Source: Novosphingobium silvae (GTDB lineage: Bacteria; Pseudomonadota; Alphaproteobacteria; Sphingomonadales; Sphingomonadaceae). From it: a DNA stretch of 64,000 nucleotides. Positions 8,920 through 63,433 of this stretch are shown one piece after another (within the stretch, counting starts at the first letter, position 1; each line of letters begins with the position of its first letter). The translations under genes were made by a program, and so were the position numbers. The notes under the pieces were generated by a model. It was not told where the DNA came from and did not search any database. It saw nothing but the letters and a program-made list of their open reading frames with translations. The DNA lies in NCBI RefSeq assembly GCF_009856825.1, contig NZ_WVTD01000006.1, positions 1-64,000 on the forward strand. Direction: 5' to 3'.

Positions 8920-11016
<2,097 letters not shown>

Positions 11017-54924: not shown

Positions 54925-57159
54925 TCAGAACCGCACGCCCACTTCCAGGCCGTAGGTCGCTGGCTTGCTCCAGTTCGCGCCGATGCCGAAGCTGGAGTAC
55001 TGGGCTTGGGTACGAAAGCGGCTGTCGGTGACGTTGTCGCCGTAGGCTGCGACGTGGAAGCGCTCGTCCGGCGCGGTCCACTGCGCACGCAGGGCCAGGG
55101 TCGCGTAGTCGCCCTGCTCGAACTGAATGCCCGAGGGGCCGAAAAAGAAACGGGACGAGTAGAACAGGTTGCCCGAAAGCGCGACCTGGCCGCCCGCCAA
55201 TTCCGTTTCGTAGCGCCCGCCTAGGAAGCCGGTGAACTCAGGCGTGCGCTGCATCGTCACGTTCTCGAGCGTGGTAGGCACGACCACAAAGGTGACGCCG
55301 TTCGCCGCGCAGTCGGCGGCCGCTGCGCCCCCCAGTTCGGCACAGCGCACGTAGACGGGCGCCTCGTTGAACCGCTTGTACCGCGCATGGACCCACGAGG
55401 CACCGGCGGAAAGCTGGAACTCGGGCGTTATCTCGTAGCGCATCGAACCTTCGAGGCCGTAGATTTCGGACGTCGCTGCGTTGATGATCTCGGCGGTGCC
55501 GGTGCGGAAGATCGATACCTGCAGGTTCTTGTAATCGTAGTAGAACGCCGCAGCCTCGAACGAGAGACCCCGTTCCTCGTACTTGAACCCCACTTCGTAG
55601 GCGTTGATGTCCTCTGGCCTCACGTCGTTGCAGGTATAGTTGGTCAACGCGATCTGGCACGAGCCACCAACGTCGAGCACGGCCGCCTTGTAACCCTTGG
55701 TGAACGAGGCATAGATGCTCGTCCGGTCGGTAGGCTTGTAGCGCAGGACCACGCGGGGTGTCAGCTTATCGTTCGAGATGTCGGGGACCGGCACCTCTAC
55801 CGCGGTAAGCTGGTGGTTCCAGTAGGCATCGACGATCTTGTCCTTCGAATAACGCGCGCCCACCGTGAGGAAGAGCTGCTGCGTGAATTCATAGGTAGCG
55901 TCGAGGAATGCCGCGTAGCTCTTCACCGTCGTGCTCGATCCTCCAAGCCGAACGCGCGAATTCCAGTCGTTGCCGGCATTGTCGAGATAGGTGAGGTAGG
56001 TGTCGGTGTTCTCGAAATAGAACAGCCCCGCCGTCCACTGCAGCCGCGGGCCAGCCTTGGAAGTGAGGAGAAGTTCCTGACTCCAGGTCTCGTTTACGTT
56101 GGGAAGACCGAGTTGGAAGATATCGGCGCCGGAGTAGTCGAGATCCTGCGACATGTCCGACTTTTCGCTGCGGTACTGGCTGTAGGAGGTCAGGTCTGCA
56201 AAGCCGATGTCGGCCCGGATGGTACCCTGCACCACGTCGCTGTTCGAACGGAACACCTCATCGACCGAGCCGGTGGCGATCCTGTTCCTGGCGGTGGTGT
56301 ATGGCCCTGCGAGTCCGCCGAACGGAGCGCCGAGACCGAAGTCGCTTGTGTCGAGCGAGGCAGCCAGCATGGTCGAAGGGTCGTCCGTCTCGCCATGCTT
56401 GTAGCGCACCAGCAGTTCCACGCTGTCGGACAGTTCGGCCATCATGCTCAGGCGGAACGACCAGTTCTCGTAGTCGCCCACCCTTTCGCCGGTGGCGATC
56501 TCGCGCTGCCATCCATCGCCTCGCCGGTACTGCCCCTCGACGCCGAGGGCCACACGGTCCGAAACGACGTAATTCGCGATGGCCTCGGCGCGGGCCTCGT
56601 TATAGCGCCCGTATCTGACGCGTCCCTCGAAGGCGTTGGCGCTGGTCGAAGGCTCACGCGTGGAAACAAGGATCGCGCCACCGGTCGTGTTGCGCCCGAA
56701 GAGCGTTCCCTGGGGCCCTTTCAGGACCTGGATGCTGTCGACGCTGATGAGATCGAAATCGGCGGCCAGCGGATTGGGCGAGTAGAACCCGTCGATGTAG
56801 ATGCCGACATTGCCGCCGCCGCCCGAGGTTGTCACGGCCGTGCCGATGCCCCGGATGGTGGGCTGGAAGAAGCCTCCGGCGAAGTCGAACCGCAGCGCAG
56901 GCGTGACTTTGCCGATGTCGGCGAGTTGCTGGATGCTGGCCGTTTCAAGCGCGGCGCTGGAAAGATTGGTGATCGAGATCGGCACGTCGACCTGGGCCTC
57001 GGCGCGGCGCTGCGCGGTCACGATGATGGCGCCTTCCCCGGCCGCTGCCGAATCCTGCTGGCCGGCAGCCCCATCGACCTGCGCCGCCGCGGGCAAGGAT
57101 GCGAGCGCTGCGGCTCCGGCAAGCGCGAATACGGACGTACGGGTCCTAAGGTTCTTCAC
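54925..57159 (-). CDS. TonB-dependent receptor of the catabolic region
   Basis: Outer-membrane receptor of 744 residues. A signal peptide (SVFALAGAAALASLPAAAQ) is followed by a TonB-box-like EGAIIVTAQRR, the plug (DVPISITNLSS, FQPTIRGIGT, VYIDG-like NVGIYIDGFY, VLKGPQGTLFGRNTTGGAI) and the barrel, ending in VGVRF. Such receptors take up steroids, aromatics or other bulky ligands in sphingomonads. The start is GTG 57159, with GGAGGAG six bases upstream. It lies between the MFS transporter and the oxidoreductase on the same strand. Confidence 0.94.
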   Translation of the reverse strand: MKNLRTRTSVFALAGAAALASLPAAAQVDGAAGQQDSAAAGEGAIIVTAQRRAEAQVDVPISITNLSSAALETASIQQLADIGKVTPALRFDFAGGFFQPTIRGIGTAVTTSGGGGNVGIYIDGFYSPNPLAADFDLISVDSIQVLKGPQGTLFGRNTTGGAILVSTREPSTSANAFEGRVRYGRYNEARAEAIANYVVSDRVALGVEGQYRRGDGWQREIATGERVGDYENWSFRLSMMAELSDSVELLVRYKHGETDDPSTMLAASLDTSDFGLGAPFGGLAGPYTTARNRIATGSVDEVFRSNSDVVQGTIRADIGFADLTSYSQYRSEKSDMSQDLDYSGADIFQLGLPNVNETWSQELLLTSKAGPRLQWTAGLFYFENTDTYLTYLDNAGNDWNSRVRLGGSSTTVKSYAAFLDATYEFTQQLFLTVGARYSKDKIVDAYWNHQLTAVEVPVPDISNDKLTPRVVLRYKPTDRTSIYASFTKGYKAAVLDVGGSCQIALTNYTCNDVRPEDINAYEVGFKYEERGLSFEAAAFYYDYKNLQVSIFRTGTAEIINAATSEIYGLEGSMRYEITPEFQLSAGASWVHARYKRFNEAPVYVRCAELGGAAAADCAANGVTFVVVPTTLENVTMQRTPEFTGFLGGRYETELAGGQVALSGNLFYSSRFFFGPSGIQFEQGDYATLALRAQWTAPDERFHVAAYGDNVTDSRFRTQAQYSSFGIGANWSKPATYGLEVGVRF

Positions 57160-57292
57160 GGCACTCCTCCCCTGGCTTTTGCCCTGTCCTACATCCCGCC
57201 AGACAGGCTGGGCCAGTGCGCCGCCGCATACCCGTCGAGATATCGCGGCGGCAGATTTGCCTTGGGGGAACGTGACGCCAGAAAGCACCAAG

Positions 57293-58978
57293 TCAGGGTG
57301 CGATATAGCCGATCGTCTCCTGACGCGGGTCGTAGGACTCCGCTTTCCAGCGGACCGAGCCGAAAGGCCGCTCCAGCCGGCGGCGCACGCGGCGGCCGTG
57401 ATCACTGCGGTTGAATGCGTCGGCCTGTGCCTGGATGTCGTAGTCGGCCTGGGTGTAGCGGTCGCGCATCCGCAGATAGTCGCCCCATGTGGGGCAGTGG
57501 TATCGCTCGGTCCAGAGCGCGAGGTTCTCGATGTCTCGCGCTATGCTCCAGTCGAACGCGCCGATGCGCTTGCGCACGCGTTGCATGGTCATCATGACGG
57601 CATAGAATTCCCGCGCGAGACCGGGATCGACGTCGTATTCCACTTCCACCACCACCGGCCCCGACCGAAGTGTGAGGGGAAGCGTGGCCTCGGGCTCGTA
57701 GCCGATCTCCACGGTGTCCAGATCGGCGTCGGAGTCTTGTCCGATGGGAAGCAGCACGCCCAGCAGCGAAGTCGCCCCGACTGCGATGCCCGAGGCGACG
57801 AGCGCGAAGGCCACGTCTTGCGCGGAGGCCACCATGCCCCAGGCCCAGGCACCGATCCCGATGCCCGCAGTGATGGCCGAGGAGAAGAGCGAGAGCGCCC
57901 GCGCCGTCACCCACCGGGGAGCCGACATCTGCACCGAGACGTTGAGCATCGCAATCGTCAGGATGTTGCAGGCCCCCACGACGAGGAACGCCGCGCAGGT
58001 GAGCACGAGCGAATGGCTCAGGCCGGTGATCACCAGCGCGATTCCGGTGCCGACGGCAAAGAGGCGCACCGCCCATTCCGTCGGAAGCGCCGCGCGGAGC
58101 TGGCTCACGAACAAGGCGCCCGCCACCGCTCCCACGCCCTGAGCGCCGAGCAGGATGCCGAAGGTCGCCGCGTTGCCTGCCAGCAGGTCCTTGGCGATCA
58201 GGGGGGCGAGCGCGGATGCCGTCGCGGTGGACAGGCCGAAGACCAGCACGCGCAACAGGGCGGTGCGCACAGCCGGCGCATGAAGCGCGTACCGCGCGCC
58301 TGTGAGGATCGCGCGGTCGATCCGCTCGGGCGGCAGGCGGGAGGGAACGTGCCGGCGCTTCCAGAAGAAGAATGCGGCTAGAAGCGGCAGGTAGAGCAGC
58401 GAGGTCATTCCGAACACCGCCTTGACGCCGTAGACCACCACGATCAGGCCACCCAGCGCCGGACCGAAGCTGCGCGCGACGTTGTAGCTGATCGTGCCCA
58501 GCGCCACAGCCGCCGGCAGGTGCGCGCGCGACACCTGTTCCGGGATCGAGGCCTGCCAAGAGGGCGAGAAAAGCGCCACGCCTCCGCCGATCAGCACACA
58601 GAACGCCAGCAGCACCCATGGCGTGGTGAGCCCCAGAAAGGTGATGGCAGCGAGCACCGCGGCACTCACCGCGCTGAATGCGAGCCCGGTCATCGCGATG
58701 CGGCGGCGGTCGAACATGTCGGCGATAGCGCCTGCGGGCAAGGTCACCAGCATGAGCGGGATCATCAACGCGGTCTGTACCAGCGCGACCATGCTGGCCG
58801 AAGTGCTCAGCCGGGTCATTTCCCATTGCGCCCCCACGCCAAGGAACAGCTGGCCGAAGTTCGAGAAAAGGCTGGCTATCCAGATATTGCGGAACGTGGG
58901 CTCCCTCAACGGGGCGAACGATCCGCCGCCGGTGTCCTCCGTCGCCGGCGACTGCCCGCCCCCTGCACTGCCAGCCAT
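57293..58978 (-). CDS. MFS transporter with C-terminal ABM-like domain (MFS_3/EntS type)
   Basis: A 561-residue inner-membrane transporter. It has about 12 helices with the MFS_3 features NIWIASLFSNFGQLFLGVGA, LVTLPAGAIADMFDRRRIAM and SYNVARSFGPALGGLIV. The C-terminal 150 residues form a soluble domain (VVEVEYDVDPGLAREFYAVM, RVRKRIGAFDWSIARD, WTERYHCPTWGDYLR) that resembles the ABM-like tail common in this family. The start is ATG 58978, with AGGA nine bases upstream. It probably heads an operon with the TonB receptor and diverges from the thiolase. Confidence 0.88.
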   Translation of the reverse strand: MAGSAGGGQSPATEDTGGGSFAPLREPTFRNIWIASLFSNFGQLFLGVGAQWEMTRLSTSASMVALVQTALMIPLMLVTLPAGAIADMFDRRRIAMTGLAFSAVSAAVLAAITFLGLTTPWVLLAFCVLIGGGVALFSPSWQASIPEQVSRAHLPAAVALGTISYNVARSFGPALGGLIVVVYGVKAVFGMTSLLYLPLLAAFFFWKRRHVPSRLPPERIDRAILTGARYALHAPAVRTALLRVLVFGLSTATASALAPLIAKDLLAGNAATFGILLGAQGVGAVAGALFVSQLRAALPTEWAVRLFAVGTGIALVITGLSHSLVLTCAAFLVVGACNILTIAMLNVSVQMSAPRWVTARALSLFSSAITAGIGIGAWAWGMVASAQDVAFALVASGIAVGATSLLGVLLPIGQDSDADLDTVEIGYEPEATLPLTLRSGPVVVEVEYDVDPGLAREFYAVMMTMQRVRKRIGAFDWSIARDIENLALWTERYHCPTWGDYLRMRDRYTQADYDIQAQADAFNRSDHGRRVRRRLERPFGSVRWKAESYDPRQETIGYIAP

Positions 58979-59088
58979 GACCATCCGTCCTTTTTTCCTT
59001 GTCAGGCACGATCTTGTCCGCATCGGCCTGGCCGTCAACCCGCCCGTTGCCCACGTGCCCCGCGCAGACCGCGCAGCGCACGCCAATA

Positions 59089-59106
59089 TACTAACCAATA
59101 TTAGCA
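59089..59106. promoter_or_regulatory. TACTAA-N6-TTAGCA operator-like repeat
   Basis: TACTAA, CCAATA, TTAGCA between the divergent MFS and thiolase genes. The same architecture occurs at 61523-61540. CCAATAT is also repeated 12 bases apart (59083, 59095). A likely site for the MarR protein encoded downstream of the thiolase. Confidence 0.5.
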
Positions 59107-59145
59107 ATCGCTAGGGCGATAGCGATCCGCTCTCGATTGCAATCG
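59107..59145. promoter_or_regulatory. Further palindromes in the MFS/thiolase promoter region
   Basis: ATCGCTA-GGGCGA-TAGCGAT (59107-59126) has perfect seven-base arms, and CGATTGCAATCG (59134-59145) is a perfect 12-base palindrome. Together with the adjacent TACTAA repeat this gap of 243 bases holds three operator-like elements, unusual density for intergenic DNA. Confidence 0.5.
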
Positions 59146-59221
59146 CCCGGGTGCCCTAGCATGACCGCCGATGGAGCGACGCCGTTGACGTCGGACCGCC
59201 GCGAAATCAGGGAGATCACGT

Positions 59222-60475
59222 GTGAGCGAAGCCTACATCATCGACGCGGTGCGCACGCCTCGCGGCCTCGGCAAGATGGGCAAGGGCGCGTTGTCGCACA
59301 TGCATCCCGAACATCTCTCCGCATCGGTGCTGGCAGCGCTCAAGGAACGGAACGACTTCGACACGGCAGAAGTGGACGACGTGATCTGGGGCGTTTCCGC
59401 CGCCCTCGGCTTGCAGAGCGGAGATATCGGCCGCATGGCAGCACTGGATGCAGGCTATGACGTGAAAGCGGGGGGCGTCACGCTCAACAGGTTCTGCGGT
59501 TCGAGCATCACCTCCACCAGCCTTGCCGCCGCGATGATCAAATCGGGCATGGCCGACCTTATGGTCGCGGGCGGGATGGACATGCTCTCCTATGCCAACA
59601 TGTACGGCATGAAGATGCGCGAGGCGGGCCTTGGCAGCGCCGGGATGGGCGCGGCCAACGCTCGCCTGCAGGCCCGGCATCCGCAATCGAACCAGGGCAT
59701 CGCGGCCGACGCCATCGCCGCCATGGAGGGCATTACCCGCGAGGAACTCGAGGCGCTGGGGGTAGAGAGCCAGCGCCGGGCAGCCCAAGCCATAGCTGAG
59801 GGTCGCTTCGACAAGTCTACGATCGTGGTGAAGGACGAAGAGGGCAACGTGATCCTCGATCATGAGGAATATCCCCGGCCCGAAACGACGGCGCAAAGCC
59901 TGGCCCAGCTCAAACCCGCGTTCGAGATGTTCTACGACATGCCCTCGGCGCCGGGCGGAAAGACCTATGTGGAGCTGATCAACCAGGTCTATCCCGATGT
60001 GGAGATCAGGCCGGTCCACCATGTCGGCATATCCTCGGGGGTGGTGGACGGCGCCTCCGCCATTCTCCTCGCATCGAAGGAGTACGCCGAGGCCCATGGC
60101 CTGCGGCCCCGCGCCCGCATCGTGGCCATGGCGGAGACCGGCGACTGCCCGACGCTCATGCTCAACGGTCCGGTTCCCGCAGCGCGCAAGGTGCTGGCAA
60201 AAGCAGGCCTTTCGATCGAGGACATAGACGTCTTCGAGGTCAACGAGGCCTTTGCCGTGGTCGTCGAGAAATTCATACGGGATCTTGACCTCGACCGCGC
60301 CAGGGTTAACCCGAATGGAGGTGCGATGGCGCTGGGCCATCCCATCGGAGGGACCGGCGCGATGCTCATCGGAACCGCGCTCGATGAACTCGAACGGACC
60401 GGCGGGCGTTACGGTCTCATCACGATGTGCGCGGCGGGCGGGATGGCCCCGGCCATCATCATCGAGCGCGTCTGA
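59222..60475 (+). CDS. Acetyl-CoA acetyltransferase / 3-ketoacyl-CoA thiolase
   Basis: Thiolase of 417 residues that cleaves 3-ketoacyl-CoA at the end of beta-oxidation-like pathways or condenses acyl-CoAs. The nucleophile Cys is in NRFCGSSITS; the other catalytic residues are in NEAFAVV, GGAMALGHPIGGTGAM and TMCAAGGMAPA. The start is GTG 59222. It is followed by the MarR gene on the same strand, and its promoter region carries several palindromes. The in vivo substrate is unknown. Confidence 0.94.
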   Translation: MSEAYIIDAVRTPRGLGKMGKGALSHMHPEHLSASVLAALKERNDFDTAEVDDVIWGVSAALGLQSGDIGRMAALDAGYDVKAGGVTLNRFCGSSITSTSLAAAMIKSGMADLMVAGGMDMLSYANMYGMKMREAGLGSAGMGAANARLQARHPQSNQGIAADAIAAMEGITREELEALGVESQRRAAQAIAEGRFDKSTIVVKDEEGNVILDHEEYPRPETTAQSLAQLKPAFEMFYDMPSAPGGKTYVELINQVYPDVEIRPVHHVGISSGVVDGASAILLASKEYAEAHGLRPRARIVAMAETGDCPTLMLNGPVPAARKVLAKAGLSIEDIDVFEVNEAFAVVVEKFIRDLDLDRARVNPNGGAMALGHPIGGTGAMLIGTALDELERTGGRYGLITMCAAGGMAPAIIIERV

Positions 60476-60527
60476 CGACGCCCGGCATCATCAGGCGCGC
60501 CCGACCGCGCCCGGCAAGGAGCAATGC

Positions 60528-61016
60528 GTGGCCACCGAGGCGGAAGCGACATCCACGGGCAAGATCACCGACCCCTTCATCATGCGCGACGACACCCCGA
60601 CGCGGCAGGTAGGTCTGCGCATGACCGTTATTGCCCGTCTGCAGCGCAACAACTTCGACCGCAAGGTTGCTGCCCTCAACGTTACGCGCTCGCAATGGGC
60701 GATGATCGCCACGGTCGCCCGCTATCCGGGGTCGACCCAGCGGACGATCGCCGAATACCTCGAGATGTCGGAGGCGTCGGCCGGTCGCCTGATCGATCGT
60801 CTTTGCGCCGACGGTCTGCTGGAGAGGCGCGATCGCCGCGACGACCGCCGGGCCAGAGCCGTCTACCTGACGGAATCCGCCAAGCCCCTCCTCGACCAGC
60901 TCGGCGTGATCGCGTCCGAAAGCGAGAAGCGCATGTTCGCGGGCTTCTCCGACGAGGAAGTGGGGCAGCTCCTCGATTTCATGACCCGTATCTACGATAA
61001 CGTCAGCCGCGGCTGA
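60528..61016 (+). CDS. MarR family transcriptional regulator
   Basis: A 162-residue winged-helix regulator. The DNA-binding part is visible in TQRTIAEYLEMSEASAGRLIDRL and the wing in LLERRDRRDDRRARAVYLT. The start is GTG 60528, with AAGGAG six bases upstream; an overlapping ATG at 60524 is in another frame. Located after the thiolase, it probably represses the thiolase/MFS promoters until a ligand, likely an aromatic or CoA-thioester compound, binds. The candidate operator is TACTAA-N6-TTAGYA. Confidence 0.92.
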   Translation: MATEAEATSTGKITDPFIMRDDTPTRQVGLRMTVIARLQRNNFDRKVAALNVTRSQWAMIATVARYPGSTQRTIAEYLEMSEASAGRLIDRLCADGLLERRDRRDDRRARAVYLTESAKPLLDQLGVIASESEKRMFAGFSDEEVGQLLDFMTRIYDNVSRG

Positions 61017-61115
61017 GACGGCTGGCCGGCTACCCTGCATAGCCGTCCGAAACGCCCGCTTCTACAAGCCGAAACACGACCCCGGGACTGCCCTCTTCAA
61101 CACTGCACGAACGAA

Positions 61116-61146
61116 AAGGGCGACGCCACAGGCGCCGCCCTTCTTC
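61116..61146. terminator. Bidirectional terminator between marR and the small secreted protein
   Basis: AAGGGCG at 61116-61122 pairs with CGCCCTT at 61136-61142. T residues follow on the plus strand (TTCTTCTT) and on the minus strand (CCCTTTTCG). It separates two convergent genes. Confidence 0.7.
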
Positions 61147-61165
61147 TTGAGAGCTCTCGTACGGC

Positions 61166-61474
61166 TTACTTGGCCGCGGCGATTTCCTTCTTTGACAGCG
61201 ACGAAGTCACCTTGCCGGCCACGTCGCTCAGGCTCGAAGCAGGGACGGTGACCAGGCGGCCATTGAGGATGACCTGCGGGTTGCCCTCGGCAGTGACGCG
61301 GTAGATCGGTGCCAGGCGGTGGCCGTCCGCTGCATAGAGCATCTTTCCGGCGTTGAGCGCGAGGGGCGATGCCGCTTGCGCAGTGGCTTCACTAACCTGA
61401 GTCGTCTCGGCGAACGCTCCGGCAGGAACAGCCGCAACGGTTGCGAGAGCTACGAGCGAGGCGAACTTCTTCAT
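61166..61474 (-). CDS. Small secreted protein of unknown function
   Basis: A 102-residue protein with a clear signal peptide (MKKFASLVALATVAAVPAGAFA), giving a mature product of about 80 residues. The region LYAADGHRLAPIYRV with NPQVILNGRLVTVPASSL looks like a short beta-rich domain. No family is recognised. It lies inside the catabolic region, and a TACTAA-N6-TTAGTA palindrome sits 49 bases before its start, over a candidate promoter. Confidence 0.75.
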   Translation of the reverse strand: MKKFASLVALATVAAVPAGAFAETTQVSEATAQAASPLALNAGKMLYAADGHRLAPIYRVTAEGNPQVILNGRLVTVPASSLSDVAGKVTSSLSKKEIAAAK

Positions 61475-61809
61475 CGAGTGTCTCCGGAAAATGCATCAAC
61501 ATGCTGCAGGAGCGCCTGCAATTACTAAGCTGAGTTAGTATTATTTGAACACCCGGTCAATTGCGATTTACGCATCTGATCCCTCCGGTTTGTCAACATC
61601 ATCGCTCGTGCGAAAACGTGTTTGTTACGGCGTCTCTGCCGACGCTGGATCTGCCATGAGAGGCCTGATCGCAGGTCATGATCGTCCGCACGATGGGGTG
61701 GGCAGTTGATCCTCCATCCCTTTGCGCGCACATCGAAGAGCCTCGCGGAAACGGCTGAAACCCGGCCATCGTCCGTACTTCACAAGATAACGGCAGGGAC
61801 TGGCAGCAG
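61475..61809. other. Intergenic region between the secreted protein and the CoA-transferase
   Basis: A 335-base gap between divergent genes. It holds the TACTAA-N6-TTAGTA palindrome and a minus-strand promoter candidate (TTGACC at 61560-61555, 17 bases, TAACTC at 61537-61532). I see no further gene or RNA in the rest. Confidence 0.55.
61523..61540. promoter_or_regulatory. TACTAA-N6-TTAGTA perfect inverted repeat
   Basis: TACTAA, GCTGAG, TTAGTA. It is the same architecture and half site as at 59089-59106. It overlaps the -10 region of a candidate promoter for the small secreted protein. Confidence 0.55.
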
Positions 61810-63039
61810 ATGTCGACAAAGGTCATGGAGGGTGTGCGCGTCCTCGAGGTGGCGCAGTTCACCTTCACTCCGGCCGCGGGCGGAGTACTGGCGGACTGGG
61901 GCGCGGACGTCATCAAGATCGAGCATCCCGTGCGCGGCGACACGCAGCGCGGGTTCCTCAACATGGGCGGCGTCACCCTCGATCCGCTGCGGCACACCCT
62001 GTTCGAACACCCAAACCGCGGCAAGCGCAGCGTCGGGATCGACCTGTCCACCCCCGAGGGCCAGGAAGTCCTGTACGAGATCGCCCGTGAGTGCGACGTG
62101 TTCCTCACCAACTACCTTCCCCAGGTCCGCCAGAAGAACAAGTTCGACATCGAGCATATTCGCGCGGTCAACCCGCGGATCATCTATGCCCGCGGCTCCG
62201 CGCTCGGCAACAAGGGGCCGGAGCGCGAAGTCGGCGGCTTCGACGGCACCTGTTTTTGGTCTCGCAGCGGCATCGCATACTCGATGACGCCCGAGGAACT
62301 GCCGGGCCCGCTCTCCCAAGGCATCCCGGCCTTCGGCGATTCGATCGGCGGGATGTTCATCGCCGGCGGCATCTCGGCAGCGCTCTATCACCGGGAGAAG
62401 ACCGGGGAGGCTACCGAACTGGACGTCTCGCTGCTGAGCACGGCCGCGTGGGCCTCGGGCGCGGTGATCGCGCAGGTTGCCGAGACGGGCGTGCTGACCC
62501 GCAACCCGATGCCGGGCTCCGGCGGCGCGGCGCGCAACCCCTTCATGGGCAACTACGAGGCGAGCGACGGCGGCACGATCAACTTGTGCACGATCTCGCC
62601 GACGGGGCACATCCGCAGCCTGTTCGAGCATGTCGGCGTGCCAGAAGCCGCAGACGACCCGCGCTTTTCCGAACCGCGTGCCCTGTTCGAGAACGCGGGC
62701 GCGGCAAGCGACATCCTGGTGAAGGCTTTCGCCGAAAAGCCGTTCGAATACTGGCGCCAGCATCTCAAGACCTTCTCCGGCCAGTGGGCTCCGATTCAGA
62801 GCTTCCACGACCTGCTTACCGACGGGCAGGCGCTCGCCAACGACATGATCCTCGAGGTCGAGGGGGCCGATGGCGGCGCGCCGCTCAAGCTCGTGCGCGG
62901 CCCCGTGCAATGGAACGGCGAGCCAGTGGAAACCACCCGCTCGCCCCAGGCGTCCGAGCATACCGAAATCGTGCTCATGGAAATGGGTGTCGAGTGGGAC
63001 CGCATCGAGGAGTGGAAGGCAAAGGGCGCGATCGCCTGA
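61810..63039 (+). CDS. CaiB/BaiF family CoA-transferase
   Basis: Class III CoA-transferase of 409 residues that moves CoA between organic acids. Seen: VRVLEVAQFTFTPAAGGVLADWGADVIKIEHP at the N-terminus (in parts), KRSVGIDLSTPEGQE, RGSALGNKGPE, and GIPAFGDSIGGMF with the likely catalytic aspartate. A 409-residue length is usual. The start is ATG 61810. It is followed by a 96-residue protein and an acyl-CoA ligase on the same strand, so the three probably form a substrate-activation operon. Confidence 0.94.
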   Translation: MSTKVMEGVRVLEVAQFTFTPAAGGVLADWGADVIKIEHPVRGDTQRGFLNMGGVTLDPLRHTLFEHPNRGKRSVGIDLSTPEGQEVLYEIARECDVFLTNYLPQVRQKNKFDIEHIRAVNPRIIYARGSALGNKGPEREVGGFDGTCFWSRSGIAYSMTPEELPGPLSQGIPAFGDSIGGMFIAGGISAALYHREKTGEATELDVSLLSTAAWASGAVIAQVAETGVLTRNPMPGSGGAARNPFMGNYEASDGGTINLCTISPTGHIRSLFEHVGVPEAADDPRFSEPRALFENAGAASDILVKAFAEKPFEYWRQHLKTFSGQWAPIQSFHDLLTDGQALANDMILEVEGADGGAPLKLVRGPVQWNGEPVETTRSPQASEHTEIVLMEMGVEWDRIEEWKAKGAIA

Positions 63040-63142: not shown

Positions 63143-63433
63143 ATGAAGCCTGGAACCCGCCTGAAGAGCGCTGCCTGCGACACCGAAGTCATGGTGATCC
63201 GCGCCGCCGAGGGCTTGATCGAGTGCGGCGGATCGCCCATGGAGGAGGCAAAGCCTACCCAGGCCGCCCCTCTCGCCGCCGATTTCTCCGCCGGAACGCT
63301 GATGGGCAAACGCTACGTCGATGCGGACGGCAGATATGAACTGCTCTGCGTCAAGCCCGGCAAGGGATCGCTCTCGGTCGATGGCATTGCGCTCGTCGTC
63401 AAGGATGCGAAGCCGCTCCCCGCGTCCGACTGA
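63143..63433 (+). CDS. Small conserved-looking protein beside CoA-ligase genes
   Basis: A 96-residue cytosolic protein: MKPGTRLKSAACDTEVMVIR, the ECGGSPM motif, and a C-terminal YELLCVKPGKGSLSVDGIAL. I recall similar short proteins (CDTEV...CGGxPM) next to acyl-CoA ligases in actinobacteria, but no function is known to me. The cysteines in CDTEV and CGG could bind metal. GACGAGGACTGACA gives a fair ribosome binding site. Confidence 0.7.
   Translation: MKPGTRLKSAACDTEVMVIRAAEGLIECGGSPMEEAKPTQAAPLAADFSAGTLMGKRYVDADGRYELLCVKPGKGSLSVDGIALVVKDAKPLPASD

Follow-up and report, generated by a model that had tools for sequence, protein, structure and literature searches.

MarR-type proteins are well known as repressors of catabolic operons. 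According to the available passages of the articles describing them, CouR (Rhodococcus jostii, R. palustris) and FerC (Sphingobium SYK-6) repress such operons and are released from DNA by coenzyme A (CoA) thioesters; CouR has several operators, one of them in a divergent promoter, and its element cATTGA-5-TCAATg lies over a -35 box (PMC4737184, PMC5487221). The excerpts on Saro_0803, a MarR-like protein of Novosphingobium aromaticivorans, place an inverted repeat, GCAATA-6-TATTGC, over the predicted -10 box of the nov1 promoter in the resveratrol pathway (PMC10046596), and a partial text mentions another MarR protein, HmgS, in other orders (PMC5343134). Here we analyze an inverted repeat, TACTAA-N6-TTAGYA, that stands on both sides of a marR gene in a catabolic cluster of Novosphingobium silvae. 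The window, i.e., the whole stretch of DNA analyzed, comprises the first 64,000 nucleotides of contig NZ_WVTD01000006.1. Judging from sequence, the MarR-type repressor whose gene lies between the two copies very probably docks on DNA at this repeat.

The repeat is rare and flanks the marR gene

The initial annotation had reported two copies with the same arms and spacing, and both are present, at 59089 (site 1) and 61523 (site 2; Table 1). The marR gene does lie between them, with site 1 in the divergent region between a major facilitator superfamily (MFS) gene and a thiolase gene, and site 2 at the promoter of the gene at 61166..61474 (-) for a small secreted protein, hereafter SSP. Site 2, however, does not belong to SSP alone, since a divergent CoA-transferase gene faces SSP across it; both sites are thus located in divergent promoter regions. 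In the genome (4,573,238 bases, 64 contigs), the perfect repeat occurs at these two places only, 2.4 kb apart, and 12 further places match with two mismatches. With up to two mismatches allowed, we counted 18 matches for TACTAAN6TTAGYA against 105 for the same pattern read backward, and the genome is therefore not generally enriched in the motif. At this tolerance, the 64-kb window contains only sites 1 and 2 (four matches on both strands), whereas 100 shuffles gave a mean of 0.24 and at most 3.

We then scanned 98 kb of the contig with a weight matrix trained on SSP promoters of other species only (35 sites, 26 distinct; training excluded the window, L075, L091, and any site with three mismatches). 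The highest scores were found at 61521 (32.0), 59087 (21.2), and 68612 (15.9), the next being 8.2, and dinucleotide shuffles of the respective intergenic regions attained these scores in 0, 0, and 1 of 5000 cases. The third position corresponds to a two-mismatch place at 68614 on the same contig, later taken as site 3 on separate grounds. A relaxed pattern devised from the three sites, TRCTAASYN4TNAGYA, matches perfectly at three genomic positions, all within 9.6 kb, and at three more with one mismatch (8 matches versus 17 for the backward control). Based on the genome counts, the relaxed pattern, and the shuffles, a chance origin of the repeats was set aside. A perfect palindrome with different arms, located at C8:10066 in what by eye appears to be transposase debris, was excluded from the count.

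The site co-occurs with MarR and SSP

Relatives of the MarR protein (43-90% identical; the closest named one, from Novosphingobium sp. AP12, at 90%) were collected from 47 loci and their neighboring genes mapped by tblastn, with acyl-CoA ligase rows excluded. A site scoring at least 12 is present at the SSP promoter in 42 of 42 loci that encode both MarR and SSP, a count that is partly circular because 35 of these sites trained the matrix, and in none of the five MarR loci lacking SSP, where the whole locus was scanned. The plain window pattern TACTAAN6TTAGTA matches 37 of the 42 promoters with up to two mismatches and the remaining five with three. The consensus of site 2 is the 18-base-pair (bp) palindrome TACTAACCTAGGTTAGTA. 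MarR and SSP are retained without the catabolic cluster in L061 and L095. SSP has changed side and strand in two Steroidobacter loci, L092 and L097, and the site has remained upstream of it.

A family-wide search detected SSP in 70 of 397 genomes, from which we examined 29 loci besides that of the window, plus L164 and L165. Among the 29, the site accompanies SSP in 13 of 16 loci with this MarR adjacent and in 0 of 13 without it (Fisher p 1.1e-5); after removal of seven loci sharing DNA with the matrix training set, the counts are 6 of 9 and 0 of 13 (p 0.0011).

The regulator itself falls into the MarR family, with 52.3 bits to PF12802 (cut-off 27), 39.6 bits to PF01047 (24.6), and a MarR_2 E value of 6.2e-14. 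As is usual in this family, palindromic sites co-occur with its own and linked promoters, site 2 at SSP and site 1 before thiolase-marR. Its recognition helix, SEASAGRLIDRL, follows the pattern [STA][ED][AV][SAT]AG[RQ], which is kept among the aligned MarR proteins (46 of the 47 loci; L071, with an in-frame stop, was omitted). The three MarR-adjacent SSP loci without the site among these 16 (L125, L127, and L131) encode S or T in place of the E/D of the helix. From the co-occurrence and the helix conservation, we infer that MarR binds the sites.

Two single loci deserve mention. L131 (the same place as L040, G057:C1) carries a different perfect palindrome, GATAGCAAGCTTGCTATC, upstream of SSP alongside the changed MarR helix; this may be a specificity switch and, as a single case, is a lead only. 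In L166 (G031:C19), a site at 2375 has the same 18 bases as the MarR-SSP site of that genome and stands near an apparent tetrapyrrole-methylase gene, identified by eye.

Site 2 is positioned for a likely repression of SSP

Alignments were made for selected sequences, namely 18 of 43 SSP promoters and 16 of 36 MFS/thiolase regions. All 18 aligned SSP promoters carry GTCAATTG unchanged, and its distance from the site is the same throughout. In 30 of the 43 promoters, including that of the window, TTGAC is found 16-17 bp ahead of a TAAC-type hexamer inside the palindrome. The fixed distance between site and -35 box is directly observed, in contrast to the -10 box, whose position within the palindrome is presumed. 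Since the site keeps a fixed distance to the TTGAC -35 box, repression is likely. Moreover, a second upstream operator copy, similar to TACTAAGCTAGCTTGACA, is present in 11 loci, mostly of Sphingobium and Sphingomonas. Its right arm is the -35 hexamer TTGACA, as would be required for a repressor to keep RNA polymerase out.

Sites 1 and 3 are kept in some lineages

Although neither the window nor any site-1 sequence was included in training, site 1 scores 21.2; shuffling the region 5000 times gave 10.8 at most. Comparable elements precede marR in L061 (17.1) and L063 (16.0), which have no thiolase gene in between, and occupy the thiolase-marR gap of L070 (17.0). Of the 16 aligned regions, which were chosen after the mismatch table had been seen so that their counts give no rate, 14 retain the left half TRCTRAC and 14 the AGCA of the right half. 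We read site 1 as a putative lineage-limited, asymmetric operator for autoregulation, weaker than site 2 and kept in part of Novosphingobium. Just after it, at 59104-59145, the blocks GCAATCGC, GCGAT, and ATTGC are invariant in the 16 aligned regions and form ATCGC-N4-GCGAT (59107-59120), suggesting that a second factor acts in this region.

Site 3, missed in the initial annotation, lies about 117 bp before an IclR-family regulator gene (68730) and faces an enoyl-CoA hydratase gene. Of the first 20 genomes encoding this MarR, 19 have the IclR gene, and the best matches in all 19 carry a site-3-like element (scores 12.5-21.2). Five further loci (L070, L072, L075, L076, and L091) have it as well, with scores of 11.3-18.7. 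It is missing in the other MarR loci of this second IclR set, which are mostly from Sphingobium and Sphingomonas but include L082, L089, and L094, named Novosphingobium. Not counted in the second set were L187 and L193 (broken IclR of L090), L188, L189, and L194 (30-35% identical), and the second paralogues L190-L192. In the family sample, three of the 13 genomes that encode this MarR have the element, as against none of the five that lack it, and the 48% identical IclR paralogue in L160 has no site. By eye, another inverted repeat of the type AAAACGAG-N5-CTCATTTT precedes the IclR genes, in L015 at about 10633-10656 and in other loci, and is perhaps the operator of the IclR protein itself.

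Weighing the evidence and alternative explanations

Several observations weigh against MarR as the protein that acts at all three sites. The score cut-off of 12 was our own choice: at 12.3, L124, with MarR adjacent, is just above it, and the loci L128 and L140, which have no MarR, score 10.7 and 10.0. The SSP genes of L164 (G288:C14, site at 1193, score 30.0) and L165 (G325:C36, site at 1512, score 13.7) carry sites without a MarR gene in the extracted 3-3.5 kb; since this MarR is encoded elsewhere in both genomes, we read these genes as possible targets in trans. The MarR proteins of the five loci without SSP keep the same recognition helix. L038 has SSP and an acidic helix residue, in a helix otherwise further changed, yet no site, so that a one-residue specificity rule is too simple. 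The exact sequence TACTAAN6TTAGTA occurs at 11 places in 9 of the 397 family genomes, five of them beside a MarR-SSP pair and six away from this MarR; the backward control is commoner (25 genomes versus 9, by our tally), and isolated exact matches are therefore uninformative. A profile built without the window and run over the whole genome at E up to 10 found only the site at 61521 (E 0.11) and did not recover 59087 or 68612, and the score of site 3 was exceeded by 1 of 5000 shuffles. The assumed -10 box of SSP is weak (2-3 of 6 bases; in the window, TAACTC shares 2 of 6 with TATAAT), and the search for it covered only spacings of 15-19 bp. As to site 1, no more than 11 of 36 divergent MFS/thiolase regions, including that of the window, carry the element within three mismatches; it is lacking in every Sphingobium and Sphingomonas region and in several of Novosphingobium. 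Among the 16 aligned regions, a two-armed form with TTAG on the right is confined to the window species and L051. The promoter or the site of another factor may account for part of the conservation at site 1.

These last points bear on an alternative in which site 2 is a MarR operator and site 1 merely a chance look-alike composed of the conserved -10 box (TATACT) and the unrelated element GCAATCGC. The invariance of GCAATCGC and the adjoining GCGAT in all 16 aligned regions, only two of which have the TTAG of the right arm, agrees with it, as does the lack of the element in most MFS/thiolase regions. However, no shuffle came near the score of site 1, its left half is largely kept among the aligned regions, and the elements before marR in L061 and L063 and in the thiolase-marR gap of L070 are what autoregulation predicts. 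We consider the look-alike unlikely.

Alternatively, the motif could be the operator of the IclR-family regulator, with MarR merely a neighbor. Site 3 does stand upstream of the IclR gene, and an IclR match (E 1e-20) is present in 39 of the 47 MarR genomes (19 of 20 and 20 of 27). Eight genomes have no such match (L061, L063, L071, L078, L092, L095, L096, and L097; some are metagenome bins, making absence uncertain), but seven of these eight encode SSP and all seven keep the SSP site. In addition, IclR promoters possess the separate conserved repeat described above, and the IclR consensus found in the accessible part of one article (PMC13273656) is unlike the motif. The lack of the motif at all five IclR promoters without this MarR in family genomes carries little weight, as it is also lacking at 10 of 13 with it. 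By presence and absence, the motif tracks MarR and SSP and not IclR; we therefore set IclR aside as the cognate regulator and regard this alternative as very improbable.

Finally, that the motif is a promoter or messenger RNA structural feature of SSP and no protein-binding site would fit its fixed position relative to the -35 box but is hardly credible, because the motif is lacking in 13 of 13 SSP loci without adjacent MarR, which led us to set aside a promoter element without regulator, because the second upstream copies look as expected of paired operators, and because a copy also precedes IclR.

A proposed MarR regulon

We consider it highly probable that MarR represses SSP via site 2, and further promoters via the weaker sites 1 and 3, until released by an inducer. 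In this model, the 18-bp palindrome would be the operator of a dimer of the MarR protein encoded at 60528-61016. When inducer is absent, MarR would sit on the SSP promoter just 3' of the -35 box and block RNA polymerase. The same protein would bind the half-degenerate site 1, resulting in autoregulation and control of the exporter and thiolase genes, and site 3 in the divergent hydratase/IclR promoter. The inducer that would release MarR is most likely an intermediate of the substrate of the cluster, either an acyl-CoA or a free acid; an acyl-CoA is favored because CouR and FerC respond to CoA thioesters in the available passages, which is an analogy only.

One MarR regulon thus likely comprises SSP, MFS/thiolase-marR, and hydratase/IclR, with SSP as the apparent constant target and the other two as lineage-limited ones. 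The regulon proposed in the initial annotation also covered the TonB-dependent receptor. Whereas its SSP branch is well supported (42 of 42) and its MFS/thiolase branch reasonably so in part of Novosphingobium, the matrix scan found no operator in the 133-bp gap between the receptor and MFS genes, and control of the receptor would therefore need co-transcription from the MFS promoter. The sequence comparisons thereby provide an uncharacterized group of sphingomonad MarR proteins with a testable putative operator, three candidate target promoters, and a candidate specificity position, and they point to an unnamed secreted protein family as the most constant target of this MarR, more so than any catabolic enzyme.

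SSP is a predicted PRC-barrel-like protein

The signal sequence of SSP, assigned by eye, is MKKFASLVALATVAAVPAGAFA. The core that AlphaFold predicts has six strands and ends in a helix, with a predicted local distance difference test (pLDDT) score of 90-93 over residues 41-100. The best structural matches in the PDB include PRC-barrel chains (e.g., 3htr) and reaction-centre H chains; Z does not exceed 7.5, and every Foldseek E is 0.001 or higher. The reaction-centre H chain contains a PRC barrel. A PDB sequence search found nothing significant, and SSP of the window has no Pfam family match, PF05239 included; 3 of 34 SSP members match PF05239 weakly (best E 0.024). The model suggests that SSP likely has a PRC-barrel fold. 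In 289 genomes of the class, mostly from other families, SSP was found only in the window genome.

More speculatively, MarR, the secreted protein, and the operator may constitute a two-gene sensing module that is portable and predates its catabolic clusters, in which the TACTAACC half-site code and the recognition helix change together between sub-clades and SSP carries or buffers the hydrophobic substrate or inducer in the periplasm. We offer this as a tentative idea that may well not hold.

Organization of the locus

From left to right, the locus consists of the TonB receptor (-), MFS_3 (-), site 1, thiolase (+), marR (+), SSP (-), site 2, and CoA-transferase (+) (Table 1). Beyond the latter follow the gene of a 96-amino-acid protein and genes for an AMP-binding ligase, a CoA-transferase-like protein, the enoyl-CoA hydratase, the IclR regulator, and an acyl-CoA dehydrogenase-type protein. 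Most of the 47 loci encode the 96-amino-acid protein at 64-92% identity, and it has no Pfam or NCBIfam match. At 61681-61694, ahead of the CoA-transferase gene, an inverted repeat, ATCGT-CCGC-ACGAT, of which ATCGT and CGAT are invariant in 18 aligned sequences, is probably the site of another regulator.

Table 1. Genes, putative operator sites, and predicted promoter boxes of the locus.
Feature	Position	Strand	Remarks
TonB-dependent receptor	54925..57162	-	start probably GTG near 57159; 3' of MFS gene
MFS_3 transporter	57293..58978	-	divergent from thiolase across site 1
Candidate -10 box TATACT, thiolase-marR promoter	59087..59092	+	overlaps site 1; placed by alignment; no clear -35 in window species
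Putative operator site 1	59089..59106	+	TACTAACCAATATTAGCA; divergent MFS / thiolase-marR intergenic region; left half more conserved than right in related Novosphingobium loci
Thiolase	59222..60475	+	NF004682, acetyl-CoA C-acetyltransferase
MarR-family regulator	60528..61016	+	GTG start by eye; analyzed as 60525-61016; 52 bp after thiolase, same strand
SSP	61166..61474	-	102 amino acids; Sec-type signal sequence (by eye), predicted PRC-barrel-like core
Putative operator site 2	61523..61540	-	TACTAACTCAGCTTAGTA towards SSP, forward TACTAAGCTGAGTTAGTA; near-perfect palindrome over SSP promoter
Assumed -10 box TAACTC, SSP promoter	61532..61537	-	within site 2; positioned by 17-bp distance from -35
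Predicted -35 box TTGACC, SSP promoter	61555..61560	-	alignment of 18
CoA-transferase family III gene	61810..63039	+	across site 2 from SSP
96-amino-acid protein	63143-63433		between CoA-transferase and ligase genes
Putative site 3	68614-68631 (L015:10615-10632)		TGCTAACCCAAGTGAGCA; score 15.9; hydratase/IclR divergent promoter; 4.6 kb past window end

Comparison with known systems

In kind, the system is an ordinary MarR regulon. For the pairing of MarR with a secreted PRC-barrel-like protein, as for the present operator, no description was found in the open-access literature, and a search there for PRC-barrel with periplasm and Sphingomonas gave nothing. The predicted beta-barrel core of SSP aligns best with a PRC-barrel domain chain and reaction-centre H chains; SSP differs from PRC-barrel proteins such as 3htr in being short and carrying a signal sequence. 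Among NCBIfam profiles, the MarR protein matches SlyA (NF002926) best, but its 68.1 bits are below the cut-off of 120 and do not make it a SlyA equivalog. The SlyA operator, TTAGCAAGCTAA, differs from the present motif.

With CouR and FerC, the locus shares a MarR protein at catabolic genes and, with CouR, several putative operators, whereas the operator letters of CouR differ and the available passages on CouR and FerC mention no secreted protein. The protein also scores 56.3 bits against the Saro_0803 profile NF053777, where 200 are needed for an equivalog. As far as the excerpts on Saro_0803 go, its arms (GCAATA/TATTGC) and its pathway, that of resveratrol, are different, but the two systems have in common the genus, six-base arms, a six-base spacer, an overlap with a predicted -10 box, and a catabolic setting (PMC10046596).

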